Assembly (NCBI GenBank): GCA_024401435.1
Contig: JAKSLB010000023.1
Span: forward strand, 1 to 47,797
Direction: 5' to 3'
DNA length: 47,797 nt
Source: Paludibacteraceae bacterium
Lineage (GTDB): Bacteria > Bacteroidota > Bacteroidia > Bacteroidales > Paludibacteraceae
Notes under the pieces: generated by a model
The model's database searches: none
What the model was told of the DNA's origin: nothing
The model's input: the letters and a program-made list of their open reading frames with translations, nothing else
Shown here: piece after piece, positions 26,997-42,972 of the stretch
Layout of the letters: each line of letters begins with the position of its first letter
How positions within the stretch are numbered: position 1 is the first letter of the stretch
Program-made: the position numbers and the translations under genes

Positions 26997-28049
26997 TTAT
27001 GCGATTTCCTTCTTTTTAGGGAATAGAATCGAAGCTAAAATACTCAAAGCAATAATACCCAATATGACTAATAATGATACTGGAGTACTTATTTCTATTT
27101 CGCAAAAAGTATGCAATAACATCTTAACACCAATGAAGGCTAACAAGAATCCCAAACCTGTTTTCAAACGACAGAACATATTCATCACATTACTCAACAT
27201 AAAGAATAATGATCGAAGTCCCATGATAGCAAAAATATTAGAGAAGAAAACAATGTAAGGATCTTGTGTCACAGAAAAGATGGCTGGAATAGAATCCACA
27301 GCAAATAAAATATCAGAGAATTCAATTACCAATAAGACCAAGAACAAAGTCGTTATGTATCTTTTACCATCTTTTTTAACAAAGAAATCATGACCTGTCC
27401 ACCCTTTTAACAATCTAAAATGCTTAGATGCAAAACGAACAACAGGGTGATTATCCGGATCTATTTTTTCATCTTCATCTTTTGCAAAAAGCATTTTTCC
27501 TCCTGATATCACCAATATACCGCCAAACACAGCCAAGACCCATGCGAATCTTTGAATCAACGCTGCACTCAAGAAGATAAATGTGAAACGTAACACAATG
27601 GCTCCTATAATACCCCAGAACAATACTCTATGATAATATTTTTGTTCAATTCCGAAACTCATAAATATCATAATCATAACGAATATGTTATCAATGGAAA
27701 GAGCCTCTTCAATCACATAACCAGTGAAATATTCCAAAGTTAATGCGCTACGATAGTGCTGCAAATTTTCTTCTAATCCAATTAATGGATCTATTTTCAA
27801 GCCATGTCCATGTTTAGCGTTTATAGTCATTAATTCTTCTAAAGAATCTACACCATGAATATACTCTCCAAAGAAGTAAATTAATCCACCAAAAATAGCT
27901 GCAACAGCTACCCAAATACAAGTCCACATCATAGACTCTTTAAAAGTTACAACATGGTCATCCTTATGGAAAACGCCTAAATCTAAAGCCAACATAAAGG
28001 AGATTATCAACATGAAACCTCCAAAGGATAAAAAATCGTAAATATTCAT
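26997..28049 (-). CDS. TerC/Alx family membrane protein
   Basis: This 350-aa polytopic protein belongs to the TerC family. The motifs AVDSIPAIFSVTQDP and EEALSIDNIFVMIMIF, each with acidic residues in membrane helices, are characteristic, as is SDILFAVD. About nine membrane helices are visible. Members include Alx and YceF-like proteins. They are linked to manganese or other metal export, during or after membrane insertion of metalloproteins, and to tellurite resistance. It has its own perfect -7 box (TATCTTTG, 28074-28081), so it is separate from the NRPS operon upstream. Confidence 0.9.
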   Translation of the reverse strand: MNIYDFLSFGGFMLIISFMLALDLGVFHKDDHVVTFKESMMWTCIWVAVAAIFGGLIYFFGEYIHGVDSLEELMTINAKHGHGLKIDPLIGLEENLQHYRSALTLEYFTGYVIEEALSIDNIFVMIMIFMSFGIEQKYYHRVLFWGIIGAIVLRFTFIFLSAALIQRFAWVLAVFGGILVISGGKMLFAKDEDEKIDPDNHPVVRFASKHFRLLKGWTGHDFFVKKDGKRYITTLFLVLLVIEFSDILFAVDSIPAIFSVTQDPYIVFFSNIFAIMGLRSLFFMLSNVMNMFCRLKTGLGFLLAFIGVKMLLHTFCEIEISTPVSLLVILGIIALSILASILFPKKKEIA

Positions 28050-28073
28050 TCTAAGTAATCTTAAATTTTAACG

Positions 28074-28081
28074 CAAAGATA
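28074..28081 (-). promoter_or_regulatory. -7 promoter box for the TerC gene
   Basis: TATCTTTG on the minus strand, 24 bp upstream of the ATG at 28049. It marks the boundary between the NRPS operon and the TerC-hpt unit. Confidence 0.65.
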
Positions 28082-28145
28082 GTGTTATTTAGTGAACGTA
28101 TTCTTATTTTTTTTAAAATAATTTCAATAATAACATATTCAAAAT

Positions 28146-28724
28146 TTAAATGTGATTTTTAACAATACTAATAACGTAAGAATCAACACGAATGGTTTCG
28201 CATTGCCATAATTTATGATCATATTCGAGACACTTTTGGTACTGAAATGGCATAACAGAAAAAGTATTCAACGAAATATTCATTCCCTTTCCTACTGCTT
28301 TTACCAAAGCTTCTTTTTGAGTCCATAGAATATGAAAACGTGTCAATGGTTCTTCTTGCATCCATACAAGTTCATCTTCTGCAAAAACATGATTGCAAAC
28401 TTGTAAGTTCTTTTCATCCATTATTTCAACATCAATTCCTATTTCAAATTCATCTTGTGCAATCACACACAGATCTCCACTATGTGAAAGATTGAACGAC
28501 GGTCCATCCTTAAAAAAAGGCTTACCATAACCATTAAATAATATATCTGACTCTTTCAACATGGGAAATGTTTGTTTCAACAAATAAGTGGCAGTCAAAC
28601 TTCTTAGACGGTCATTTTCCTGCTTATATTTCATAGCATTTGCGTAACGATTCGGAAATTGAATCGAAACAGTTTCAATCATAACGGGTGTCAAATCATG
28701 AATATTCATCAAATGCCAATTCAT
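28146..28724 (-). CDS. Sfp-type 4'-phosphopantetheinyl transferase
   Basis: This 192-aa protein has the family motifs: NLSHSGD (residues 78-83 region), GIDVE (Mg2+ ligands Asp98 and Glu100), and WTQKEALVKAVGKGM (Trp134, Lys137, Glu138, Lys142). It transfers the 4'-phosphopantetheine arm from coenzyme A to the Ser of carrier domains. At 192 aa it is a short, pseudo-dimeric Sfp-like type. Its ATG overlaps the stop of the phosphatase/kinase gene by 4 bp, and the NRPS three genes upstream has two carrier domains. It is therefore the obvious activating enzyme of the NRPS, though it could also serve other carriers. Confidence 0.92.
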   Translation of the reverse strand: MNWHLMNIHDLTPVMIETVSIQFPNRYANAMKYKQENDRLRSLTATYLLKQTFPMLKESDILFNGYGKPFFKDGPSFNLSHSGDLCVIAQDEFEIGIDVEIMDEKNLQVCNHVFAEDELVWMQEEPLTRFHILWTQKEALVKAVGKGMNISLNTFSVMPFQYQKCLEYDHKLWQCETIRVDSYVISIVKNHI

Positions 28725-30499
28725 GACTCCTTACATTTTTTAACAATTATCAATCTATTTATATCATTGAACCGCTCGTAATAGACTTCATCCATAATAT
28801 TTTTCACAAGGTATATTCCCAAACCTCCTATTCTTTCATGATTATTCAAATCAGGATCTTCCATTGTCAATGGATTGAACGCAATGCCATGGTCTTCAAA
28901 CATAATTCGAACATATAAATCTGAAAATACCGTTTTTACAGAGAATAAGCCTTTTTCACCATCTGGATAGGCATGTTCCACAATATTAGACAATACATCA
29001 TCTATTGCAGTCATCACCAACATTTTATCCTTATCATCCAAACATGATTTTTTCACTTGTTCATCAAGCCAATCAAGTACTTTTCCCACATTGGCAGAAG
29101 TGGCTTCAACCTCCATTTCATCAACAAATAAATATGTCAATACTTCATTTCTTTTGATGGTCATAATCGTTATATCATCAAACTGATCAACGCCATTAGA
29201 AAAAGACGACACGTTATTTCTCACATTTTCGCACAACATTTTAGCAGAATCAAACGAACCAGATACAGATTTCAACAAACCATTGGTTCCAAAACGTTCT
29301 CCATTTTTATTTTCTGAATCTGTAACGCCATCCGTATAAAGAACCAACGTTTCATTCTGAAACAAATGAAAGAAATGAGAGGTGTACACAACACCTGGCA
29401 ACCCCAAAAATGGTTGGGGTTCACATTCCACGAATGACATATTTTTATTTTTATCAATCAACACTGGTGGATTGTGACCTGCATTCACATAAGATCCGCA
29501 ACCTGTTTTCACATCATAAATAGCCATCCACACCGTCACGAACATACAATCCACATTGTCTTTCGAAATAAGAGAATTGGTTAATGTTAGAATTTCACCC
29601 AAATCCGAATGGGATAGACAAATCGAATGAATGGTATTTTTAGTAGACATCATAAACATTGCAGCAGGGAGCCCTTTATCGGAAACATCTGCCACGAGAA
29701 ATGCTAACTTATCTGGTCCCATCCAAAAAACGTCATAAAAATCCCCTGCGGTTTCTTTGGCTGGAATAATCAAAGAAAACAAATCAATATGTTTGTTTAG
29801 ATTTAGTTTGGACACATCAGGAAAACTTTGTCGCTGAATTTCCGCAGCCATCGTTAATTCTGATTTTGCCATCATGATTTTTTGTGTTTCCTCCACTTGT
29901 TTATTCATTATCTTTAAACTGTTTTTTGTATTTTCAACAGCTAAAAAAACGAACAACAAATACGATATCATCTTAACAACAAAATGAGATTTCAAATAGA
30001 GCCAATAACTTTCATAATGCCAAAAATTCAAACCGACACAATGCAACTTATAAAACACTTCTACATGATTCTCTAAATAGTATCCTAAAGATGATGATAA
30101 AAACAAAGAAACAAGCAATGTTATCGAAACCCAGATTGTAAAAAATTTATCACAATATCTCGCGCTTAAAAACAAGGGACAAAGAATCATCAACACAACA
30201 TAATAAGAAAAGCACAAATCCAAGAATGCAGTGATAATCAAAAAATTAAACGCCAAAGCATACTTGGTTTTCTGCAACACATTTTTTTTATACAATGTGA
30301 CACATGCTGGAATGATACTAAATACCAACAAAACAGGAAAAACACAATCAAAGATGTCATAGTTCATATAGTCAAATCCCTTTACCAAAAGGAAAAATAA
30401 CAATTGAACAATGCCAACACCTAACAATGCAAAAGAAACGAACTTATTCGCATTAAGTTCGTTCTCTTCATATAATGTTTTCTCTATGTTATTTATCAT
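28721..30499 (-). CDS. Membrane SpoIIE/RsbU phosphatase fused to an RsbW-like kinase domain
   Basis: This 592-aa signalling protein has three parts. About six membrane helices (about 22-170) form a sensor-like region, followed by a short coiled coil (NKQVEETQKIMMAKSELTMAAEIQRQ). A PP2C-type SpoIIE phosphatase domain (about 225-425) has the metal motif AGDFYD at Asp253 and VADVSDKGLPAAMFM. A C-terminal histidine-kinase-like ATPase domain of the RsbW/SpoIIAB type (about 455-590) has AIDDVLSNIVEHAYP (Asn505) and GGLGIYLVKNIMDEV. Opposing kinase and phosphatase activities toward a STAS protein are thus joined in one chain. It overlaps the STAS gene by 11 bp and the PPTase gene by 4 bp. No classical sigma-B exists in Bacteroidota, so the output partner is unknown. 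Confidence 0.9.
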   Translation of the reverse strand: MINNIEKTLYEENELNANKFVSFALLGVGIVQLLFFLLVKGFDYMNYDIFDCVFPVLLVFSIIPACVTLYKKNVLQKTKYALAFNFLIITAFLDLCFSYYVVLMILCPLFLSARYCDKFFTIWVSITLLVSLFLSSSLGYYLENHVEVFYKLHCVGLNFWHYESYWLYLKSHFVVKMISYLLFVFLAVENTKNSLKIMNKQVEETQKIMMAKSELTMAAEIQRQSFPDVSKLNLNKHIDLFSLIIPAKETAGDFYDVFWMGPDKLAFLVADVSDKGLPAAMFMMSTKNTIHSICLSHSDLGEILTLTNSLISKDNVDCMFVTVWMAIYDVKTGCGSYVNAGHNPPVLIDKNKNMSFVECEPQPFLGLPGVVYTSHFFHLFQNETLVLYTDGVTDSENKNGERFGTNGLLKSVSGSFDSAKMLCENVRNNVSSFSNGVDQFDDITIMTIKRNEVLTYLFVDEMEVEATSANVGKVLDWLDEQVKKSCLDDKDKMLVMTAIDDVLSNIVEHAYPDGEKGLFSVKTVFSDLYVRIMFEDHGIAFNPLTMEDPDLNNHERIGGLGIYLVKNIMDEVYYERFNDINRLIIVKKCKES

Positions 30500-30797
30500 C
30501 TTTTATTATTTCCAAAACATCTAACAAACCAGACAGACGAAAAACTTCATATACTGCCGGATTTAAGTTCTTCATCACCATCCTTCCACAACTTTTCATT
30601 TTTTGGTTATACATCAAAATTATGCGTATACCCTTGGATGAAACGTAATCCACTTTGCTAAAATCCATTATCAACTGAGTAACGCCTTCTAAATTATTCT
30701 CAATTATTGCATTAAAATCATCAGCTGTTGTAGAATCTAAATGTCCTTCTGGAATAACCGTTAAAACCGTTTCATTATTAATTATTTCTGTATTCAT
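30489..30797 (-). CDS. STAS domain anti-sigma factor antagonist (RsbV/SpoIIAA-like)
   Basis: Starting at the Met at 30797 (MNTEIINNETVLTV) gives a 103-aa single STAS domain, the normal RsbV length. An upstream in-frame Met at 30824 would add nine residues without homology. The phosphorylation loop reads VDYVSSKGIRII. Ser54 aligns with Ser58 of SpoIIAA, and Ser53 replaces the preceding Asp, the common YxSSxG variant. The protein should be phosphorylated by an RsbW-type kinase and dephosphorylated by a SpoIIE-type phosphatase. Both activities are encoded by the overlapping next gene. It is 43-70 bp downstream of the NRPS gene on the same strand. Confidence 0.9.
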   Translation of the reverse strand: MNTEIINNETVLTVIPEGHLDSTTADDFNAIIENNLEGVTQLIMDFSKVDYVSSKGIRIILMYNQKMKSCGRMVMKNLNPAVYEVFRLSGLLDVLEIIKDDK

Positions 30798-30867
30798 AAT
30801 TCTTACTATTTTATCATAAAACATAAAAACTTTTGTAAAAGTATGTTGCGATATTTTTCATTGAAAT

Positions 30868-33800
30868 TTATCTGTCAAAGAAACATAATTCAATCAACTT
30901 ATCCAACATCTTTCGTAAATAATCCTTACTAATCAATGGCCAAGCAAAGCCAAGTCGATACAATGCCTTGATTGTATAAGCTGTATCTGACGTGATACGG
31001 ACACGCATCTCGTATTTTTCACCATCACCTGTATATTTCATCAAATCTGTTGGTGACTCTTTGGATTTGTTGAGATAAGCGATAAAGCCGGTAAAGGCTG
31101 ACAAATCTTGATTATCTTGTTTCAAAACCTTCTCGAATCGTTTTTCGAACTCTGATTGCTCAACGATATCTATTTTAATACCACGCTTAATCATCTCATT
31201 GATGAAATAGCCATAATGAATTTCGTGACAGTTTTTAGCATGGAAGACGGTAAAGCTATCTGGTGTACCAGACAACATAACAACAGCCTTAGCTACGCAG
31301 TCAATTGGAGAGTATTCTATTCCTGCATCCATCATATCAACAGGATAGCAGCCTAATTTTTCATATCCAAGGAATTGTTTTAAGAATCCATTACTATAGG
31401 AATTAATCTGAAACTCTCCATCGGTCTCTCGTGGCATCAAATTACCCAAACGAATAATTTTACCTCTTAATTTTCCTCTTGATGTTGCATCAATAATAGC
31501 TTGTTCTGCCAAATACTTTGAATAAATGTATTTGTTTTCAAGCGACTGACCAATATTCAAATTATTCTCTCTGAAAATGATATCAGAAGGAACATTTCCA
31601 TTAACTGATTCACCACTAACACTTAACGATGACATCTGGACAAAACGAGCATTCTGTTTTTGCGATAATTCAATCAAATTCTCCACTCCAGAGAAATTAT
31701 CATTCAACAGAGATTCATTTTTATCAAAATGCTTCACATTCGCTGCACAATTAATAATAGTATCAAACTGATAAGTTGACAATTTATCCACAAGATCTTT
31801 ATCGGAAATATCACAATTCACAACAGCCACACGATTTTTATCGACCTTTTCGTACCAATCCTCAAAATAATAAACCATCATCATCTCCATACGTGTTTCT
31901 GCCGGCAATCCATCTTTGCTTCTTACTAAACAAATTACCTTACCTGTTGTCGTATCTATCAACTCTTTGAATATATGACTACCTAAAAATCCAGTCACAC
32001 CTGTCAATACCACATCTCCTACACCTTCATTCTTTATATTTGGCAAATTAGAAACAACATTATAATCCAAACATGAATAATCATATTGTTTCTTAGACTC
32101 TCCTGATGGTGCAAAGATATCATCCGACTTGGAACCTTTAGAAACAAACGCTGCTAATTTTTGAGGCGTCGAATTTTCAAACAAATTCTTATATACGATA
32201 TCTATTTGTGCATTGTTACACTTAACAATCAACTGAACAGCGGATATGGATGTTCCTCCTATTGCAAAGAAATCGTCATCTGCATATACTTTGTCAATGC
32301 CCAAAACAGACTGATATATAGAACATAATTTTGCTTCCATCTCAGTCTTAGGTTCTTCACCCACTTTCGTTGATTGCAACTCAGGTTTTGGCAATTTCCG
32401 TTTATCCACCTTACCATTCACATTCAACGGAATTTGATCTATCTGCATAATAACAGCAGGAATCATATATGGTGGTTTCTTTGTTCCTATGAACGACTTC
32501 AAATCTTCAATATCTATTTGATTATCGGCAACGATAAACGCAGCAACAAACTTTCCGCCTGTTGGACTATCATATGCTTGAACTGTGGCATTTTTGATTC
32601 CTTCATAATCCCTAATAACACATTCCACTTCCGTCAACTCAATTCTGAAACCACGGACTTTCACTTGTCCATCCCGACGACCAATGAAATCATAATTACC
32701 ATCAGGTAATAATCGAACAACATCACCCGTCTTATACATTCGTTCGTATCCCACCTCGTGTGAAAACGGATTGGCAACAAATACCTCCTGCGTCTTTTCC
32801 GGTCTATTCAGATACCCTCTGGCAACTTGCGGCGTTGCAATACACAATTCTCCACATGCACCAATTGGTAACAAATGACCATATTTATCTGTCACATATA
32901 ATTTCACATTAGGATTTGCACAGCCAATCGGTAAAAGTTGACTATCATCTTTCACCACAGAATGTGTAACATATGCCATTGTTTCACTTGGTCCATAACC
33001 ATTAACAAAAGTAAAATTTGTTGGGGGATTGAAAGGAACTAACTTTTCACCTCCTACTAAGAAATGAGTCAACGTTTTACTGGTCGTCGAACTTGCAAAC
33101 ATACGACCCACTTGAGTGGTCATAAATCCAAATGTGATAGCATGTTTATTATAGAACTCATCCAATTTCATTAAATCCATACGTATATCATCTGGAATGA
33201 CATACAAAGATGCACCTGCCATACAAGCCGTAAACACATCCATCACACCACCATCAAATCCATAACTTGCATACGTGGCAATTCGAGATTGTTGGGTAAT
33301 ATTATTAATCTTTGAATGTGTATGGAAGAAAGCCACAATATTACGATGTTCAAGGACACATCCCTTAGGAGTACCTGTCGTTCCTGATGTATAAATAATG
33401 ACTAAAGCATTATTCGGCGTAATATCAACTTCTATTTTAGCCGTTTCTGGTAATGATTCTATTTCATCAACATACAAAACTGTACCTTCATATTCATCCA
33501 AAAGAGGTCGTAAATTTCTATCTGCAATTAATAGTTTTGCACCACAATCTTTTACCATGAAATTAAGTCGATCCTTCGGATAGGTTGGATCCAATGGTTG
33601 ATAGGCTGCACCAGATCTCACAACACCCATGGCTGAAATCGTCATATATTCATTACGGGGTACGATAATCGATACAAAATCATCCTTTCCAATACCTAAT
33701 TTATGGATATAAGATGCAATCTTATTACTCATCACATCCAAATCTCGATAGGTATATTCCTTGTCTTGATAAACTATTGCAATGTTCTCTGGATGATCTT

Positions 33801-36800
33801 TCACCGCTTCTTCGAACAAGTCTGTCACTGTTTGTGTCGAATCATACTCATATGCTGTTTGATTGAACTGGTTCAATCTGTTTTTTTCATCATTATCAAG
33901 AATAAGAATATCTTTGAGAGATGGCTTTTCAACAAACTCAAGCAATGCCTTATCAAAAGACTTAACCATGCCCAATATCAATTCTTCACTAAATTTAGTC
34001 TTGTCATAATCTGCTTGATAAACAAATAGTCCATCCTTTAATGCCACTTGAAGTACAATTGGAGCTTTTTCATCAGATGAAGGTAAAGATATCAATTCCG
34101 TTGGATAGCCACAGAATGTATCAAACATGAAATTATCACCTTGATAGATAAACATCACATCGGCTTGCACTCCTATTTCTCTACTGATTTCTGCAAATGA
34201 ATAGATGTCATTCGCCATACTATTCATCAATTGATCTGATACTTTTGAAATCAACTCTCGTGGTGAACATTCTGACATTTCACATAATACTGGCAATGTT
34301 TTCACCAACATTGAAACTGTATTACTTACACGAGAATCCATACGTCCGTTATAAACGGTTGAGAACACAGAATAATCTGTATTATTGTATTTAGACAAGA
34401 TGAAACCAAACGCAGCACATAATAAGCCATTAACTGACATATTATTTTCTTTTACATAATGGAGAACCGACTGGGTCACTTCTAACTTACTTTGTAGAGT
34501 AAACGAACCACTGTCTTGTTTGCTTGTCTTGTACAAATCAGAGTTAGGTAAGAAATCAAAATCTAATCCAGACAAAAGATCATTGTAGTATTTACGAGCT
34601 TTTGACAAAACTTCTGTTTTTCGATTTTTCTCCTCTTGCAAAGCGACCTCATATCCTGTAAAGATTTCATTCTCTACAATCTGCCCCATATAAGCTTTTG
34701 AAATAGAATCAAAAAACAGATTCATTGAAGTACCATCACTGATGATATGATGCATATCAACGAATAGATACAATTCCTTCGCTTGAATGATTTTTATTCG
34801 GAACAAACGATCGCCTTCTATATTGTATGGAACAATCAGTTTATCTTTTACTGATGCTATTGAATCAGCAGTGACAACTTCAATGTCATGAACATCAAAA
34901 GAATCCGTCACACGTTTTTGTCGAATTTCACCTTCTGCGTTATAGAACAAACGTGTATTGATATAAGAATGAGCAGCAACAGCTTTTACAATTGCATTCT
35001 TCAGTTCATCCACATTCAAACTCGTACTCAATTGAAGTAACACAGGAATGTTGTATATTGTCATATTAGGATGAGACATACATTCAACAAAGATTCCTTC
35101 TTGAGTTTTAGACAATGGATAATCTTCGAGTTGTTCTAATTCTTCGGTTTGACTATTAGCAAGTATAAATTGCTCCAACTTTTCAACGGTATTATTCTCT
35201 TTCAGATCTCGAATTTGAATCACCACATTGAAAGCTTCCGAAAGCAATACATTTAATTTGACACTTCCTATAGAGGTAAGTCCCGCATAAAAGATATCTG
35301 TATTAATACCAAAATTAGAGATACCAATAACATCTGCAACTTTCTCAAAAATAGCTTGTTGCATATCATTTTGAGGGAGTACAATATTTTCGATTTTCTT
35401 TTCTGGTTTAGGAAGTTTTTTCTTATCCACCTTACCATTCACATTCAATGGAATGCTCTCTATTTGCATTGTAACGGCAGGTACCATATACGATGGCTTT
35501 TGTGACAAGATAAAATCGTTCAATGCAGACACATCAACTGTAGTGTCTGAAACAACAAACGCAGCAATGAATTTTCCTCCACTCTTTTCTTCAAAAGCTT
35601 GAACTGTAACGTCTTTAATCTGTTCATAAGAACGAATAACGCTTTCAACTTCAGTCAACTCAATTCTGAAGCCACGAACCTTCACCTGACCATCATTACG
35701 TCCAATATAATCAAGCATTCCATTCGGTAGCATACGAACAACATCTCCTGTTCGATACGCTCTCTCGTATCCTTTTTGTCTTGTAAACGGATTAGGAATA
35801 AATGTTTCAATTGTTTTTTCAGGACGGTTTAAGTATCCTCTACCAACTTGATGACCCGAAATCAGCAATTCGCCTGGAACTCCTATTGGCAATCGTTGAA
35901 GATTCTTATCTACAACATATAACTTAATGTTTTTATTAGCACTTCCGATAGGAACTCTATCGTACATTTGATCCACAACAAAAGAACTAATATAGGCGAT
36001 TGATTCAGATGGTCCGTAACCATTAACCAACTTTAAGTTTTTATCAGACATATCAACTGGAACCAATGCTTCTCCACCCACCATGAAACTACGAAGTGTT
36101 TTACATTTGGTCAATTCAACAAATTGTCGTCCAACTTGAGTGGTCATAAAGCCATGGGTGATATCATTGTCAATATAAAATTTATCCAAAGCTAAAATAT
36201 CCAATCGGATCTCTTCCGGAACAATATATAAGGTTCCTCCTGAAAGGAAAGCTCCAATAAAATCCATCACAAAAGCATCAAATCCGTAACTTGGATAAGA
36301 AGCAATACGTGAATTATCAGTTAGGGAATAAATTGTTTTATGACTATTATATAAAGCGACGACATTTCGATGTTCTATCATAACTCCTTTCGGAACACCT
36401 GTAGTTCCAGACGTGTATAATAAAACATACAAACTATCAGGAGCCGGACTTGATAAGATGTTCTTAGCTTTCGGAAGATTTGGAATATCCTCTATATATA
36501 AAACCGGTCCTTTATAATCCTCAATAGATGATTCGTATTGATGATTCGTAATCAGCAACTTTGCAGAAGCATCTTTCACCATAAAAGACAATCGTTCTTT
36601 GGGATAACTTGTATCCAAAGGTTGATAACCTGCACCTGATTTCAAAACACCAATCGTGGCAACTGCCATATATTCGCAACGCGGAATCATAACCGAAACC
36701 ACATCATTTTTACCAACACCTAAATTATGAATGTAAGAAGCAATAGATTCAGAGATTTCATCTAATTCTTTATACGTTATTTTTTTATCATTGAATGAAA

Positions 36801-38310
36801 CTGCCAATTTGTTTTCATTTTTAGCCACTTGGCGTCTGAACAATGTGACGAAATCAGTCATTTCATATTCTTCTTCTGTCTCATTATAGATATCCAATTG
36901 CTTTTGCTGTTCTGTTGGAAGTAGAATGAAATCATTAAAATTATCCTTACACATCATTTCAGAAAGGACCTGAAAATAAGTTTGTAAGAAGCTCTCTACC
37001 AAATCATCATTATACAAATCTTTTCTATAAACAACTCTAAACAAATAACCTTCTACTTCTTTGAAAACTTCCATAGATATTTTAGAGACAGACTCTTCCA
37101 CATAGAGTTGTTCAAACTTCACCATAACATCACCTAATTGAACGGAAAAGAAATGTCCTGGTTGGTAAACAAACATAAAGTCATTTGCAAATCCATACTT
37201 AGAAGCAAGTGTCGGAAATGGATAAAAATCATTTGCTATCAATTCACGCAACTGTTTATGCTTATCCAACAAATATTGCGTCACATTGTTTTGTGAAGTA
37301 AAATCAGAAGCAATGGCAATGGTCTTTACCAACATACCCATGGTATCTATGGTTTCAATGTTATGACGACCACTTTCTGCCATACAAACCAATGCCTTAT
37401 TAGAACCATTAAATATTGCCAGGGTATACTCAAAAGCAGACAAAAATAAAGTATTAGCTGTAATTCCGTTGCTCTTAGTGAATTTTGCAATGTTTTCATG
37501 AGAGAACTTTCCATTCATTAAAAATTTTTTTATACCTGCCTGGGGTTCTTTCAATAGTAAATTATTCGTTGCAAAATCATTGTCATAGTTAAAATCATCA
37601 AAAACAGATGTATAGAATTGTTCTGCCTGCTGATATTCATACGTATTTGTCAATTGCTCTTCTAACAATGAAACATCAAATAGAGAGACTTTCTCTTGTG
37701 GTAAATGTTCACCGTTATAAGCCATCGTCACTTCATTATTGAAAATAACATCTGATGTGCCGTCAAATACAATATGATGGGAATCGAATAAGATATAAAT
37801 GCTTTCAACATCGTCCAAAATAGTTACTCGAGCAAGAACATCCTTCTTCAAATCAAAAGGTTTCAAAAAGGCTTTGATCTCTTTTTCTGCATCCTCTTTA
37901 GCTATTTTTTTATAAACAGTTTTAGTCGCTCCTTCAAAAGGTACCATAGAAGGAACGCCATTCACATCTTCTATATGAGAAAAAAACACTGCATGATTTG
38001 CCAAGACTTGATCAAAAGCATTTATCATACGCTCAACATCAATATCACCCCTTTTTATTTTTGCTCCAAAAGGACAATTGTAAATTAAAGATGTGGGATT
38101 TTTAATGTAAGAGAAATATATACCCATCTGACTCGATGTCAATGGATATGACACTCTTTTCGTATGGAGTGATTTTTCTAAATTTTCTTGTATTTCATCC
38201 CATTGTTTAAGGTATGAGTCTCGTTCATTTTCTGGAATCTGCGATATTTTTTTTGCTGTAAAATCACGAATCAAAGAAAACAGCGCTGATTGATTTTCTT
38301 TTTCTGACAT
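30868..38310 (-). CDS. Two-module non-ribosomal peptide synthetase with terminal reductase (C-A-T-C-A-T-R)
   Basis: Residue numbers here count from the upstream ATG at 38340; the likelier start, MSEKENQ at 38310, is residue 11. Domains in order: condensation C1 (about 55-480, His188-His189-IVF-Asp-Gly); adenylation A1 (about 500-1000, LYTSGTTGVPKG, NGYGPSES, YRTGD); carrier T1 (Ser1023 in AGLTSIG); condensation C2 (about 1080-1500, His1197-His1198-IIS-Asp-Gly); adenylation A2 (about 1530-1990, IYTSGTTGTPKG, NGYGPSET, YKTGD); carrier T2 (Ser2031 in IGGTSIS); thioester reductase R (about 2105-2490, GVTGFLG from Gly2114 and Tyr2271-x3-Lys2275). Every catalytic motif is intact. The first C domain suggests the first amino acid is N-acylated. 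The R domain implies release as an aldehyde (or alcohol), as in known gut dipeptide-aldehyde/pyrazinone NRPSs. It heads an operon with STAS, phosphatase/kinase and PPTase genes. Confidence 0.94.
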   Translation of the reverse strand: MSEKENQSALFSLIRDFTAKKISQIPENERDSYLKQWDEIQENLEKSLHTKRVSYPLTSSQMGIYFSYIKNPTSLIYNCPFGAKIKRGDIDVERMINAFDQVLANHAVFFSHIEDVNGVPSMVPFEGATKTVYKKIAKEDAEKEIKAFLKPFDLKKDVLARVTILDDVESIYILFDSHHIVFDGTSDVIFNNEVTMAYNGEHLPQEKVSLFDVSLLEEQLTNTYEYQQAEQFYTSVFDDFNYDNDFATNNLLLKEPQAGIKKFLMNGKFSHENIAKFTKSNGITANTLFLSAFEYTLAIFNGSNKALVCMAESGRHNIETIDTMGMLVKTIAIASDFTSQNNVTQYLLDKHKQLRELIANDFYPFPTLASKYGFANDFMFVYQPGHFFSVQLGDVMVKFEQLYVEESVSKISMEVFKEVEGYLFRVVYRKDLYNDDLVESFLQTYFQVLSEMMCKDNFNDFILLPTEQQKQLDIYNETEEEYEMTDFVTLFRRQVAKNENKLAVSFNDKKITYKELDEISESIASYIHNLGVGKNDVVSVMIPRCEYMAVATIGVLKSGAGYQPLDTSYPKERLSFMVKDASAKLLITNHQYESSIEDYKGPVLYIEDIPNLPKAKNILSSPAPDSLYVLLYTSGTTGVPKGVMIEHRNVVALYNSHKTIYSLTDNSRIASYPSYGFDAFVMDFIGAFLSGGTLYIVPEEIRLDILALDKFYIDNDITHGFMTTQVGRQFVELTKCKTLRSFMVGGEALVPVDMSDKNLKLVNGYGPSESIAYISSFVVDQMYDRVPIGSANKNIKLYVVDKNLQRLPIGVPGELLISGHQVGRGYLNRPEKTIETFIPNPFTRQKGYERAYRTGDVVRMLPNGMLDYIGRNDGQVKVRGFRIELTEVESVIRSYEQIKDVTVQAFEEKSGGKFIAAFVVSDTTVDVSALNDFILSQKPSYMVPAVTMQIESIPLNVNGKVDKKKLPKPEKKIENIVLPQNDMQQAIFEKVADVIGISNFGINTDIFYAGLTSIGSVKLNVLLSEAFNVVIQIRDLKENNTVEKLEQFILANSQTEELEQLEDYPLSKTQEGIFVECMSHPNMTIYNIPVLLQLSTSLNVDELKNAIVKAVAAHSYINTRLFYNAEGEIRQKRVTDSFDVHDIEVVTADSIASVKDKLIVPYNIEGDRLFRIKIIQAKELYLFVDMHHIISDGTSMNLFFDSISKAYMGQIVENEIFTGYEVALQEEKNRKTEVLSKARKYYNDLLSGLDFDFLPNSDLYKTSKQDSGSFTLQSKLEVTQSVLHYVKENNMSVNGLLCAAFGFILSKYNNTDYSVFSTVYNGRMDSRVSNTVSMLVKTLPVLCEMSECSPRELISKVSDQLMNSMANDIYSFAEISREIGVQADVMFIYQGDNFMFDTFCGYPTELISLPSSDEKAPIVLQVALKDGLFVYQADYDKTKFSEELILGMVKSFDKALLEFVEKPSLKDILILDNDEKNRLNQFNQTAYEYDSTQTVTDLFEEAVKDHPENIAIVYQDKEYTYRDLDVMSNKIASYIHKLGIGKDDFVSIIVPRNEYMTISAMGVVRSGAAYQPLDPTYPKDRLNFMVKDCGAKLLIADRNLRPLLDEYEGTVLYVDEIESLPETAKIEVDITPNNALVIIYTSGTTGTPKGCVLEHRNIVAFFHTHSKINNITQQSRIATYASYGFDGGVMDVFTACMAGASLYVIPDDIRMDLMKLDEFYNKHAITFGFMTTQVGRMFASSTTSKTLTHFLVGGEKLVPFNPPTNFTFVNGYGPSETMAYVTHSVVKDDSQLLPIGCANPNVKLYVTDKYGHLLPIGACGELCIATPQVARGYLNRPEKTQEVFVANPFSHEVGYERMYKTGDVVRLLPDGNYDFIGRRDGQVKVRGFRIELTEVECVIRDYEGIKNATVQAYDSPTGGKFVAAFIVADNQIDIEDLKSFIGTKKPPYMIPAVIMQIDQIPLNVNGKVDKRKLPKPELQSTKVGEEPKTEMEAKLCSIYQSVLGIDKVYADDDFFAIGGTSISAVQLIVKCNNAQIDIVYKNLFENSTPQKLAAFVSKGSKSDDIFAPSGESKKQYDYSCLDYNVVSNLPNIKNEGVGDVVLTGVTGFLGSHIFKELIDTTTGKVICLVRSKDGLPAETRMEMMMVYYFEDWYEKVDKNRVAVVNCDISDKDLVDKLSTYQFDTIINCAANVKHFDKNESLLNDNFSGVENLIELSQKQNARFVQMSSLSVSGESVNGNVPSDIIFRENNLNIGQSLENKYIYSKYLAEQAIIDATSRGKLRGKIIRLGNLMPRETDGEFQINSYSNGFLKQFLGYEKLGCYPVDMMDAGIEYSPIDCVAKAVVMLSGTPDSFTVFHAKNCHEIHYGYFINEMIKRGIKIDIVEQSEFEKRFEKVLKQDNQDLSAFTGFIAYLNKSKESPTDLMKYTGDGEKYEMRVRITSDTAYTIKALYRLGFAWPLISKDYLRKMLDKLIELCFFDR

Positions 38311-38504
38311 ACTTACCTTTTTTTTATTAAAATATAACACACCAATAAATAGATTCTGAACAATTTCAATAATCCTATTAAAAATCCAGGATTAAACAAA
38401 TCAAAATACTAAGTTGGCACACAAACTTTTCAAATTCACCTTTTAGTACAATCATTCTCAACAAGATACATTGTCAAGAACACGTATAAATATGACGTAT
38501 ATTG

Positions 38505-38512
38505 CAAACTTA
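38505..38512 (-). promoter_or_regulatory. Putative -7 box of the NRPS operon
   Basis: TAAGTTTG on the minus strand matches TAnnTTTG. A TTTG 28 bp upstream (38537-38540) is roughly at -33. This would give a long leader of about 190 nt before the start at 38310, AT-rich and without an obvious structure apart from a weak AATCCT...AGGATT hairpin at 38371-38393. Confidence 0.45.
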
Positions 38513-38555
38513 TGAAAAAAGGAGACAAAATCGAAACAAAATATTCAATAATCTA

Positions 38556-38650
38556 TTGGGTCTTTTATAAAATCCCCGATTTTTTTTAATTTTTAAATAA
38601 GGATTATAAATCTTCAAAACCACTACAAAGCAATTTATAGAAATCCACTA
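38556..38650. repeat. MITE-like element, internally deleted copy 3
   Basis: The left end (GGGTCTTTTATAAAATCCCC then GATT) is followed after only about 40 bp by the right end (ACTACAAAGCAATTTATAGA then AATCC). This right end is identical over more than 25 bp to that of copy 1. About 110 bp of interior is missing. The right terminal repeat runs into the 3' end of the hybrid regulator gene, whose TAG stop lies within it (38648-38650). Confidence 0.7.
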
Positions 38651-41600
38651 TTGTTTTAAATTATTTTCTTTTGATTCTTTGTATTCTGTTGGGGTCATTC
38701 CATACTTTTGTTTGAAACAACGACTAAAATAACGAGAATCTGACATACCAATCATATATGTTATTTGCGTCATTGTATAGTTCCCCTCTTCAATTAATTT
38801 TGCAGCACGAGTCAATCGTGTTTCTCGAATGAACTCCATTGGGGTCTGTCCCACTAACGATTTCACTTTCGATAACAAATGCCAACGACTCACCTTCAAC
38901 GCATCTTGTGCATCTTCTACGGTAAATGACACATTGTCCATATTCGACTCTATCACCTCAATAAACTGACGCATCAATTCATCATCTTTAACATTTAATG
39001 GTTCACCTTCAATATCCGATTGAATATCCTCATTTTCATCCTCTTGATTAATCTCTACCGTTTTATTGGACATTCCACTTTGGATCAACGATTCTCTATA
39101 TTTCTCCTGCCATCTTCTTCTTTCTTCTAAAATATTATTGATTCGAGCTTCCAAATATGGCATATTGAATGGTTTCGTAATATAATCGTTTGCACCGATG
39201 TTCATACAATCAATTTTGCTCTGTAAATCGGTTTTAGCGGTCAACAAAACAATAGGAATATGAGACGTTTGTTCGTTTTCGCGAATCATTTTTGTCATCT
39301 CAATTCCATCCATCTCAGGCATCATAATATCTGTAATGATAAAATTAGGCAACTCCCTCATAGCAGCTTCATAACCTAATTTTCCATTTGCAGCTTCAAT
39401 CACCGTAAACCGTTTCTGTAGAACACTTCTCAAGAACTCTCGCATCTGATCATTGTCCTCAACAATCAACAATGTCATAGACTCTTTTGTTGATGCCATC
39501 GTCACAGATGATTCTTCCTCTCCATTGTTTTCTTCTGGTTCTTCTTTAACTATGATATCTGTAGTATTATCAAAATGTTCAATTCCAGGCAAAAAGGCAA
39601 TTGTAAAGACAGAACCTTTATTCTCCTCACTTTCAACTTGAATGGTAGCTCTATGCATATCAACAATTTCTTTCACCAAAGAGAGTCCTATCCCTGTACC
39701 ACTTTGCTTTGTTAAAGAATAGTCTTGTAATGTAGTATAACGATCAAAAATAATTGACAGTTTATCTTTAGGCATACCACAACCTTCATCAGAAACCACA
39801 ATTACCCCTTTACCTTCTTTCACTTCAATCTTAACAGTGACTTTCTTTCCTTCTGGTGTGAATTTAAATGCATTAGACAACAGATTAAACATAATAGTAT
39901 CCACTTTGTCTTTATCCACCCAATAAGTTGCTCCATTGGTCTCATCATCAATTTTGAACTGAATGTTTCTATTTTCAGCCAATCGAAGAAAATTAGCACT
40001 ACAAGAAGAGACAAATTGACCAAAATTCGTCTTCTCCACCTTCAATCGCATCTTATTGCTCTGTATCTTACGAAAATCCAATATTTGATTCATCATTCTC
40101 AACATACGACTTGCATTGGTATGAACCACCTCCAACTGTTTTCTATCCTCTTCATTGATAGAACCATTTTCCAACACATTTTCTAATGGAGCATTGATCA
40201 ACGTAAGCGGTGTTCGTAATTCATGAGAGATATCTGTAAAAAATTGCAACTTAGAATCTGAAATTTCCTGTTCCATCTTCATCTTCGTTCGCAAACGATA
40301 AACAATAGCTGCTACAGCTAACAAGAAAACCAAAAGTAAGGCATACAAACAATAAGCCCAACCACTTTCCCAAAAAGAAGGAAGAACATGAATCTTAATT
40401 TCTCTTTCATTATCATACCACGTACCTTCACTATTGGTTGATTTTACTAAAAAGCGATACTCACCTTTAGGTAAGTTTGTATAAGTAGCTAATCGCTGTG
40501 TCCCTACATAGTTCCATTCTGTTTCAAATGGCTCCAACTTATATGCATACTGAATATGTTCAGGGAAACGATAATCCAATGCAGCATAACCAATAGAAAA
40601 CACCGATTGATTATGTTCCAAAGTTATCTCAGACAAGGCACTCACATCTTGATGAATTGGTGAATTTTCTTGATGAATATCCTGTTCTTTATTAAACAAC
40701 AAAAATCTGGTAAACACGATAGAAGGAGCATATTCCGTTGTTGTGATTTCTGATGGTTTGAATGAATAAAAACCATCATCTGTTCCTGCTACCAAATCAC
40801 CAGAATATCGACGAATCAAACTATGACCCGAAAAACGATCCGTTCGAAATCCTCTGAACTGACCAAATGATTCAAAAGAGTTGTTTTGTTCATCAAACTT
40901 AACAATAGACTCTTCCGATAACACCCATAAATTATTCTGTTGATCTTCTTGTATTTCAAGTAACAAATCGGAAGGGAACATTCTATTTTGTCTATTGTAT
41001 GAAATGAATTCTGGCGTTTGAAACAAGACAAATTCATTCGACAGGCGGAATAAACCACCTCCATAAGAAGCCATCCAGATATTCCCTTTTTGATCTTGAT
41101 AAATATCGTAAATACAACTATTCGTCAAATTGGTATTTTCTGTATTATAAAAGAAGAAACGAATGTTCTCAGGTGAATCAAAATCAGAGGAGAAAATTGT
41201 CAATCCCTCACTAGAACCCAACCAGATATTCCCTTGAGAATCTTCCATCAAAGCGTGAGATTGATCCACGGTCGGAGGATAAGTGTTTTTCAATAAGTTT
41301 TCTTTATGAATGAAGCGATATCCTTTTTCATCTGATTGCAAAAGATGCAACCCCCCATTACGTGTAGCTAACCACAAATGACCTTTTGAATCTTCCAACA
41401 AATCACTAATCTCATATGACAAAGGCGAAAACTCATCGGAAACAGATTCACATTTAGCCACCTGATATTTGGAATCAGACTGCTTTGTCAAACATAATAA
41501 AGAACGGTCTGTAGCGACCCAAATTTTTCCTTTACGATCTTGATACAAGAAAGAAACAAGTGCAAACTTGGATGGAGAGTTTTGTATTTCTCCATTACTA

Positions 41601-42925
41601 TTCACATAACCGATTCGATTGGAATTCACATCAAACAAACTCAATGAACCATCCTTGGAAGCAACCCATAATCGCTTCATATCATCTTCCCAAAGAGCTG
41701 TCACATCCAATTGTTTTCGATTAAAACGATTAAAATCAGCAGCCACATGTTGAAAAGACTCATTAAAAAAAACAGTCTTTATGACACCTGAATTTTCCTT
41801 TGCTGACCATATAACCCCCATCGTGTCAGTAATGGATACCTGTTCATCGTAATCATTCAAGAAACTTTTATGTATAGAGAATGTATTGTGATCTAAGACA
41901 TAAACATTTGTTTCGTTTTTTACAGTAAATAATAAATCACCTTGAAGATCTTTCCAACATTTTTCAAAGGAACTGTCAAATTCTTTCGAAAAAATTACCG
42001 CATTATCCAAAAGACGGAAAACGAACATTTGATTCTGTTGCGTTAAAGCACAGCAATAAGAATCATTCATCAAATAGAGAGACACAATTGGTTGTTGTGT
42101 AGGCAACTTCACCTCAACCATGCGTCGTTTTGTCTTCTCATATTTGTAGACAACACCTGCCACCGATGACACAATCAGTTCATTTGGACTTTCTATCATA
42201 GAATAGACAGATGGATTAGTTCCATTGATAGGAAAGGATGTTAAAACCGTATCTCTACCTTGCAACGAAAACAAACCTTTATTGGTTAACAACCAACGTT
42301 TATCATTTTGACCCAAGAAAACAGAGCGTACATCTTCACTATTCACAGATGAATCACCAAAACAGAAACGATCCATTTGAACAGAAGAAAGAGTGTCAAT
42401 TGTCAGGCGTATAGCACCTGCCGCATTAGTACCTAATAACCAAATCTCATTGTCGTTGAGTTGCAACATCCGACCAGTAGAAAAATAATCATCTCCCCTA
42501 TTCTCATCAGCAGATGGATATAGAGAAAATGATTCTGTAGTCGGATCAAAACGAAGAACCTGACCAATATCGTTAAGTATCCAAAAGCATCCACAAGCAT
42601 CTCGCTTCATGGACAAGAATTGGTTACTCACACTTCTTTGTAATTCTTTTGAACTTGCCTTGAAATTTTTAAAATCATAGCCGTCAAAACGACTTAGCCC
42701 ATTTTTTGATACGATCCAGAGAAATCCATTTTTCTCTTTTATCATATCCATCACAGTGTTTTGAGCTAATCCGTCTTGTACTGTATAAAAACTATAATAG
42801 GATGACAATTGTTTCTCATTCTTTATATTATCATAAGAACCTTGCGTCCATCCACAGCAATAGGGAAAGAGAAGTAATAATAATATAAAGAATCGTAACT
42901 TCATTCTTCTTTTTTTATCTTTCAT
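38648..42925 (-). CDS. Hybrid two-component system regulator (sensor kinase, receiver, AraC HTH)
   Basis: This is about 1,425 aa from the Met at 42925. An alternative Met at 42904 directly begins the signal peptide, and an outer Met at 42961 is less likely. Residues below count from 42961. Parts: a signal peptide; 14 or so two-component beta-propeller repeats (about 50-740; GLSRFDGYDFKNF, KGNIWMASYGGGLFRL); a Y_Y_Y domain (about 780-850); a membrane helix (about 862-882); HisKA with His913 (DISHELRTPL); HATPase (NLLSNAFKFTP, DEGCGMP); a receiver with Asp1211 (TDIMMPEMDG); and a C-terminal AraC helix-turn-helix. All phosphotransfer residues are present. Such HTCS proteins usually sense oligosaccharides and control adjacent SusCD loci, but no susC or susD is in this window. 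The NRPS operon is the next gene downstream. Confidence 0.94.
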   Translation of the reverse strand: MKDKKRRMKLRFFILLLLLFPYCCGWTQGSYDNIKNEKQLSSYYSFYTVQDGLAQNTVMDMIKEKNGFLWIVSKNGLSRFDGYDFKNFKASSKELQRSVSNQFLSMKRDACGCFWILNDIGQVLRFDPTTESFSLYPSADENRGDDYFSTGRMLQLNDNEIWLLGTNAAGAIRLTIDTLSSVQMDRFCFGDSSVNSEDVRSVFLGQNDKRWLLTNKGLFSLQGRDTVLTSFPINGTNPSVYSMIESPNELIVSSVAGVVYKYEKTKRRMVEVKLPTQQPIVSLYLMNDSYCCALTQQNQMFVFRLLDNAVIFSKEFDSSFEKCWKDLQGDLLFTVKNETNVYVLDHNTFSIHKSFLNDYDEQVSITDTMGVIWSAKENSGVIKTVFFNESFQHVAADFNRFNRKQLDVTALWEDDMKRLWVASKDGSLSLFDVNSNRIGYVNSNGEIQNSPSKFALVSFLYQDRKGKIWVATDRSLLCLTKQSDSKYQVAKCESVSDEFSPLSYEISDLLEDSKGHLWLATRNGGLHLLQSDEKGYRFIHKENLLKNTYPPTVDQSHALMEDSQGNIWLGSSEGLTIFSSDFDSPENIRFFFYNTENTNLTNSCIYDIYQDQKGNIWMASYGGGLFRLSNEFVLFQTPEFISYNRQNRMFPSDLLLEIQEDQQNNLWVLSEESIVKFDEQNNSFESFGQFRGFRTDRFSGHSLIRRYSGDLVAGTDDGFYSFKPSEITTTEYAPSIVFTRFLLFNKEQDIHQENSPIHQDVSALSEITLEHNQSVFSIGYAALDYRFPEHIQYAYKLEPFETEWNYVGTQRLATYTNLPKGEYRFLVKSTNSEGTWYDNEREIKIHVLPSFWESGWAYCLYALLLVFLLAVAAIVYRLRTKMKMEQEISDSKLQFFTDISHELRTPLTLINAPLENVLENGSINEEDRKQLEVVHTNASRMLRMMNQILDFRKIQSNKMRLKVEKTNFGQFVSSCSANFLRLAENRNIQFKIDDETNGATYWVDKDKVDTIMFNLLSNAFKFTPEGKKVTVKIEVKEGKGVIVVSDEGCGMPKDKLSIIFDRYTTLQDYSLTKQSGTGIGLSLVKEIVDMHRATIQVESEENKGSVFTIAFLPGIEHFDNTTDIIVKEEPEENNGEEESSVTMASTKESMTLLIVEDNDQMREFLRSVLQKRFTVIEAANGKLGYEAAMRELPNFIITDIMMPEMDGIEMTKMIRENEQTSHIPIVLLTAKTDLQSKIDCMNIGANDYITKPFNMPYLEARINNILEERRRWQEKYRESLIQSGMSNKTVEINQEDENEDIQSDIEGEPLNVKDDELMRQFIEVIESNMDNVSFTVEDAQDALKVSRWHLLSKVKSLVGQTPMEFIRETRLTRAAKLIEEGNYTMTQITYMIGMSDSRYFSRCFKQKYGMTPTEYKESKENNLKQ

Positions 42926-42972
42926 TTCTTCTGTTGTGAAAAAAAAATTCACAATAAACATTCCGAAAAGAT

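Follow-up and report, generated by a model that had tools for sequence, protein, structure and literature searches.

A nonribosomal peptide synthetase cassette with its own partner-switching genes in a Paludibacteraceae bacterium, and its recurrence across phyla

The four-gene cassette and its proteins

The sequence analysed here is a stretch of 47,797 nucleotides (the window) on contig JAKSLB010000023.1 of a Paludibacteraceae bacterium (assembly GCA_024401435.1), in which positions 28146-38310 of the minus strand hold, head to tail, a nonribosomal peptide synthetase (NRPS), a STAS antagonist, a fused phosphatase/kinase and a 4'-phosphopantetheinyl transferase (PPTase) (Table 1). This order had been proposed in a first-pass annotation and is borne out by the coordinates and Pfam domains, as are the gap between the NRPS and STAS genes (43 bp to the first ATG of the latter, 70 bp to the second) and the overlaps of STAS with phosphatase (11 bp) and of phosphatase with PPTase (4 bp). 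The pairing of NRPS and switch genes recurs across phyla and is not due to chance, and we propose with moderate confidence that the cassette carries a sigma-independent partner switch by which an N-capped dipeptide aldehyde is gated in its export or its assembly. A promoter and terminator scan of the window gave promoter-like sites at chance level (52, against 52.7 in shuffles), and neither Rfam matches nor tRNAs were found in it.

Table 1. Coordinates of the cassette genes, their junctions and the framing genes in the window.
Feature	Coordinates	Strand	Basis
NRPS, C-A-T-C-A-T-R, 2490 aa from GTG 38340 (2480 aa from ATG 38310)	30868..38340	-	Pfam domains, conserved motifs
STAS antagonist (RsbV/SpoIIAA type), 111 aa, or 102 aa from ATG 30797	30489..30824	-	PF01740, TIGR00377
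SpoIIE PP2C phosphatase + RsbW-like HATPase fusion, N-terminal hydrophobic helical part, 592 aa	28721..30499	-	Pfam, fold match
Sfp-type PPTase, 192 aa	28146..28724	-	Pfam ACPS 49.3 bits
Right junction, 307 bp, NRPS to hybrid two-component regulator (next to TerC in relatives)	38341..38647	.	
Left junction, 96 bp, PPTase to TerC	28050..28145	.	
Hybrid two-component regulator, right frame of cassette	38648-42961		
TerC, left frame of cassette	26997-28049		

The NRPS contains two Condensation, two AMP-binding and two PP-binding domains and one NAD_binding_4 domain (Pfam). The HHxxxDG motif is present in both condensation (C) domains, and the reductase (R) domain retains the G-x-T-G-x-x-G Rossmann motif and the Tyr and Lys positions; residues 1996-2488 match the solved chain 6vtj_A (2.1e-69). 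The gene thus has two C-A-T modules, an R domain with its catalytic residues and a PPTase partner, as expected of a two-module NRPS with reductive release, and the only two condensation-domain matches of the genome both lie inside it. Its best NCBIfam model is AusA (NF047350; 1101.5 bits, short of the equivalog cut-off of 2500), and alignment of both adenylation (A) domains to Protein Data Bank chains placed linear gramicidin synthetase nearest, with no confident substrate code read. Judging from the domain order and from characterised relatives, the product is predicted to be an N-capped dipeptide aldehyde. Two genes near related NRPSs touch on such a product: an iron-containing alcohol dehydrogenase (Pfam; locus L215, 11458-12651), which possibly reduces the aldehyde to an alcohol and has related open reading frames, by clustering, in L125, L159, L178 and L235; and a clostripain-family peptidase (Peptidase_C11; L195, 13563-15395) near a switch-linked NRPS, a possible target of, or protection protein for, a peptide aldehyde.

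The STAS protein scores 45.5 bits against PF01740 and exceeds the cut-off of TIGR00377; the genome holds one further STAS match, within a 570-aa frame. Its candidate phospho-serine, Ser54 (numbered from the second ATG), lies in the motif VSSKG and aligns with the SpoIIAA serine two residues before Gly, a position that is Ser in all 29 STAS rows compared. The fusion protein scores 152.3 bits for SpoIIE and 62.1 bits for HATPase_c_2, the latter being the genome's only match above cut-off (two more fall below). All 13 aligned rows agree in the phosphatase metal-site Asp residues and in the N-box Asn, and the window's kinase retains Asn505, D-x-G and GGLGI, with the N-box Glu replaced by Asp. Phosphatase, GHKL kinase and STAS antagonist, the last with its Ser two before Gly, are encoded together, as in the RsbU/V/W set.

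The fusion protein was modelled with a mean pLDDT of 81.6 and a pTM of 0.52. The nearest solved fold is 3ke6, the RsbU-RsbW domains of Rv1364c, and when solved structures were compared by sequence it alone matched at E 1e-5; the PP2C domain of SiaA is among the fold matches too. About 225 N-terminal residues were modelled as long helices, and their hydrophobic sequence suggests placement in the membrane; this part has no Pfam match, and the top 50 Foldseek rows were phosphatases and kinases. A variant of the module occurs at L038 (9762-19132; genome G056), about 600 bp from an NRPS, where the STAS gene and the membrane SpoIIE part are kept and no HATPase domain was detected.

Presence as a block and recurrence beside related synthetases

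The hybrid two-component regulator and TerC are adjacent in all four of the relatives fetched (from 13 with a TerC match), and in the window exactly the four cassette genes lie between them. They are separated by 192 bp in G054, which has a TerC of 88% identity, and by 0-6 bp in G113, G128 and G091. The genus-level search covered the NRPS and the phosphatase/kinase (STAS and PPTase were not searched separately): at E 1e-10 the phosphatase/kinase was found in none of the 15 other genus genomes, 13 of which have only 25-30% identical matches to the NRPS, in frames of 552-572 aa, and two none at E 1e-20. The cassette is thus present or absent as one block. It is not marked as foreign by base composition (34.4% G+C, against 34.2% for the window), and since it resembles its surroundings in this respect we speak of a block gained or lost rather than of a recent import. 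Exact insertion points are not placed, because the intergenic stretch of G054, when aligned to both junctions of the window cassette, gave scores no higher than shuffled sequence did.

Within the family, 25 of 250 genomes, the window's own included, carry a related NRPS at E 1e-90, and in 23 of the 24 others SpoIIE and STAS genes lie within 4 kb of it; in the lone exception, G041, the contig ends within reach of the NRPS, which runs off it. A phosphatase/kinase match occurs somewhere in all 24 of these genomes and in 41 of the 225 without the NRPS. With one to five matches per genome of about 2 Mb, we estimate that adjacency by chance would be expected in some one or two percent of cases. A pairing confined to the window's own genome can therefore be rejected; the first-pass annotation had made its proposal depend on finding STAS and phosphatase genes beside orthologous NRPSs, and the survey of relatives it called for shows the set to be real, block-wise and co-occurring. 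The gene order is not fixed: G040 has a contiguous set in the order PPTase, NRPS, phosphatase/kinase and STAS, and G512, from the wider order, likewise has a contiguous four-gene set arranged otherwise than in the window. The NRPS of G126 is divided among frames and was left so.

At the level of the order, NRPS matches were found in 22 other genomes of 393, and regions were fetched for 17 of these (not for G269, G312, G447, G478 and G567). Both genes are present in G501, G602 and G512, and STAS alone in G566, while five regions reach contig ends (G620, G484, G277, G552 and G421). Six regions have neither an R domain nor switch genes (L148, L149, L151, L153, L156 and L157), so the notion that the NRPSs of this order carry the switch generally was rejected.

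Switch modules of the family that lie away from NRPSs (SpoIIE-HATPase plus STAS) adjoin a block of genes of about 355, 285, 200 and 267 aa. At L270 (3858-9498) this block comprises RelA_SpoT, APH, HD_4 and Y_phosphatase3, and RelA_SpoT and APH also stand next to an unlinked module at L131 (2-3880); in L259, L264, L266, L267, L268, L271 and L272 the block was recognized by gene length only, L268 being without the last gene. Here the switch may have another sigma-free use, on alarmone metabolism.

Beyond the order, a scan of named genomes with an alignment of the reductase gave at least 416 confirmed relatives, of which the best 80 were kept, with R domains 35-62% identical to that of the window. 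Domains were labelled with our own hidden Markov models (HMMs), seeded with the window domains (the MATE model with the L218 protein), at a cut-off of E 1e-3 (1e-5 for MATE). STAS was found at 49 of the 80 loci, SpoIIE at 43, both at 41, either at 51 and any switch domain at 57; at the 53 loci where 6 kb or more of downstream sequence was in view, a switch domain is present in 43 and both STAS and SpoIIE in 34. Upstream genes were often out of view because the long NRPS fills the flank, and three pairs of loci (L125/L215, L040/L161 and L041/L160) are probably the same contigs. STAS or SpoIIE occurs in 23/46 loci of Bacillota, 13/19 of Bacteroidota, 8/8 of Methanobacteriota, 3/3 of Actinomycetota and the single locus of each of four further phyla, hence in eight phyla, archaea included, with the proviso that the phylum names are titles of metagenome bins in which mis-binning is possible.

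Gene order and divergence were compared over 59 of 66 loci, seven having been dropped (SpoIIE at least 6 kb away, short domains or identical R domains). The order phosphatase-STAS-NRPS occurs 20 times and NRPS-STAS-phosphatase 19 times, with eight other arrangements in the remainder. Pairwise distances of the R domain correlate with those of SpoIIE (r 0.81) and of STAS (0.72), values as high being reached in 0 of 2000 permutations; shared descent, for which there is no control here, contributes to both. When 75 SpoIIE domains are placed on a tree and labelled as NRPS-linked or unlinked, three label changes suffice, against a mean of 14.8 in shuffles, although near-copies help this clustering, and the window groups with G056, G501 and UBA1739 at 100/99. 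The last of these, locus L159 from a bin titled Firmicutes bacterium UBA1739, has the closest named R domain (62%, among the best 80) and a SpoIIE domain that groups with Bacteroidales copies, which reflects either transfer between phyla or mis-binning.

Exporter fusions and the client of the switch

Exporters of the MATE family were counted in a dedicated MATE/HATPase tally, because a neighbour family of 44 loci had been merged through shared HATPase domains. This gave 44 MATE frames in 42 loci, 38 of them the next gene to the NRPS (26 downstream, 12 upstream). By our own HMM, 23 of the 44 carry an RsbW-like HATPase tail (14 Bacillota, 8 Methanobacteriota and 1 Mycoplasmatota); 22 of these have the N-box and G1 motifs, 21 adjoin the NRPS, and STAS is in view at 17 of the 23 loci and SpoIIE at 13. 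The fused exporter is found at all eight methanogen loci, and seven of them have phosphatase, kinase, STAS and NRPS as well. Pfam HATPase_c_2 was detected in the MATE proteins of L166 (first copy), L206, L189, L231 and L218, and not in those of L207, L166 (second copy), L197, L223, L176, L177, L210 (465 aa), L140 and L143. Six MATE frames have an unrelated tail; the L207 protein was modelled as MATE followed by an alpha/beta domain (pTM 0.78), and a fold search with it returned MATE and related flippases, leaving the tail unassigned. Some loci of Bacteroidota have instead a MATE without a tail, an RND or SNF-type transporter, or a protein resembling an outer-membrane barrel. The window cassette contains none of these, and the five MATE frames of its genome (433-519 aa) are all on other contigs.

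Our preferred explanation, a sigma-independent switch on peptide export or assembly, would operate as follows. The PPTase would activate the NRPS, which would couple two amino acids, with an N-acyl cap probably attached through its starter C domain, and the R domain would release the chain as an aldehyde, as domain order and characterised relatives suggest. The HATPase domain would phosphorylate Ser54 of the STAS protein and the SpoIIE domain would strip this phosphate when the membrane part receives a signal, whereupon the unphosphorylated antagonist would bind a client, the presumed direction of control running from the membrane signal to that client. For the class as a whole the best candidate client is the peptide output machinery, that is, the MATE exporter with its RsbW-like tail, because NRPS-adjacent MATEs carry such a domain in Bacillota, in a Mycoplasmatota bin and in methanogens. 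We tentatively suggest a widespread class of peptide clusters, found in methanogens and anaerobic bacteria, that would switch without a transcription step: unphosphorylated STAS would bind the RsbW-like domain of the MATE protein (or another output component in lineages like that of the window) and so gate release of the aldehyde; were this so, a transporter would replace the sigma factor as client of an RsbV-type antagonist. An exporter client in the window would follow by kinship only, because the one RsbW-like domain of this type found there belongs to the phosphatase protein; the candidates there are the NRPS, an unlinked exporter or some other protein.

Several observations weigh against this explanation. 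There is no MATE gene beside the cassette and no HATPase-tailed MATE in its genome; six of the 23 loci with an HMM-positive MATE show no STAS and ten no SpoIIE, and of the 14 MATE proteins submitted to Pfam just 5 gave a HATPase match. The Asp in place of the N-box Glu recurs in L142, and G056 has phosphatase and STAS without the HATPase domain. No switch domain was seen at 23 of the 80 named loci, many of them cut short, nor at 10 of the 53 with at least 6 kb downstream, and two NRPSs of the order that end in an R domain (L150 and L152) have no switch genes in long fetched regions. Sixteen switch modules fetched from the family lie away from a complete NRPS; at one of them, L265, a 915-aa frame of adenylation type is located at a distance of about 2.7 kb. 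Finally, a transcriptome of Methanobrevibacter ruminantium under lauric acid (PMC5816558) has, in the passage of its table, positive values for both MatE genes, the NRPS mru_0351 and the PPTase, with mru_0068 not in that passage, and the words 'phosphatase' and 'anti-sigma' are absent from the main text.

The alternative that survives best, an unlikely one in our judgement, is a classical switch in which STAS and kinase free an unlinked sigma factor or anti-sigma partner and thereby control transcription of the NRPS operon. The domain set is indeed that of RsbU/V/W, control of NRPS expression has been proposed for a comparable cluster (Leahy et al., 2010), and three places in the window's genome match the SigB/F/G model (TIGR02980) below cut-off. 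Because no match lies above it, we file the switch as sigma-independent rather than as a sigma-B system; the assembly is 93% complete, so this absence is not absolute. No sigma or anti-sigma family was found among the recurrent neighbour families whose representatives were scanned. For the class, a sigma client is unlikely because seven of the eight methanogen loci carry the whole set and, to our knowledge, archaea have no sigma factors. The methanogen clusters thus make a sigma-independent role, one of the options in the first-pass annotation, more likely, and they offer a natural test of a sigma-free switch.

Next, and also improbable, is a switch that reads the peptide rather than governing it, its membrane sensor binding the exported product or the pyrazinone derived from it and setting a response elsewhere, in autoinduction or self-protection. 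The sensor parts at L121 and L144 contain a PDC domain above the Pfam cut-off, and that at L139 PDC and dCache below it, folds that bind small molecules; the window's own sensor part, however, is without any Pfam match. The correlation of SpoIIE with R-domain distances would fit such a reading, but it is also expected from shared descent. That common switch modules merely landed beside NRPSs, with no functional link, is very improbable: genomes of the family with a match do carry one to five each and 16 fetched modules lie away from a complete NRPS, but the adjacency is nearly universal in the family, it recurs with altered gene order in other families and phyla, and the SpoIIE tree has few label changes even if near-copies contribute to this.

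Comparison with known systems

This kind of system is already known and its composition in part described. The first-pass annotation knew of no described system of the same composition, but one has been reported from Methanobrevibacter ruminantium M1 (mru0068, mru0512-0516), where, in the passages concerned, an NRPS lies among genes for two serine phosphatases, for an anti-sigma factor antagonist and for a MatE protein, another cluster holds PPTase, phosphatase, antagonist and kinase, and environment sensing, control of NRPS expression and export are proposed (Leahy et al., 2010; PMC2812497). Like the window, that cluster has a two-module NRPS with a starter C domain, an antagonist and serine phosphatases; the NRPS is given a terminal thioesterase in the text and a thioester reductase in the legend of Figure S8. 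Unlike the window, it belongs to an archaeon, has MatE beside the NRPS and a separate kinase gene, and has its PPTase outside the NRPS cluster; the passages on MatE do not mention an ATPase domain. The window shares with it the antagonist and serine phosphatase beside the NRPS, and has no MatE there. A rumen survey reports 5,346 NRPS clusters and similarity between those of archaea and Firmicutes, and its main text has no word beginning with 'phosphatase', 'sigma' or 'transporter' (PMC8241843). As far as our searches reach, three things are new, namely how widely the pairing occurs, the cassette in Bacteroidota and the fused exporter: no publication on a MATE-HATPase fusion or on this wide occurrence was found among the matches listed, in searches that left most subscription journals uncovered.

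On the biosynthetic side the close known systems are AusA/AusB of Staphylococcus aureus and, grouped with it, gut dipeptide-aldehyde clusters such as that of ruminopeptin, a dipeptide aldehyde of Ruminococcus bromii (PMC12327764). AusA/AusB likewise pairs a two-module NRPS ending in R with a PPTase, but AusA is A-T-C-A-T-R, without the starter C domain, and the passages on AusAB name no STAS or SpoIIE gene. In the passages concerned, protease inhibition is attributed to dipeptide aldehydes from gut anaerobes, and the literature we found does not make plain what controls their clusters. A dedicated phosphate switch, recurring with such synthetases in bacteria and methanogens, would give a direct handle on when they act.

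On the signalling side, Rv1364c of Mycobacterium tuberculosis resembles the window protein in joining a phosphatase and then an RsbW-like kinase in one chain. Sensor and antagonist domains are part of Rv1364c as well, and it is linked to a sigma factor, whereas in the window the antagonist is encoded by a separate gene. Sigma-independent partner switches like the one proposed here are SiaABCD of Pseudomonas and SypE/SypA of Vibrio, in which a PP2C phosphatase, a HATPase kinase and a small antagonist control a client that is not a sigma factor; those clients concern a diguanylate cyclase or biofilm control, and no NRPS is involved. With an RsbW-like domain fused to an exporter, partner switching would reach beyond transcription and the control of enzymes and take in transport.

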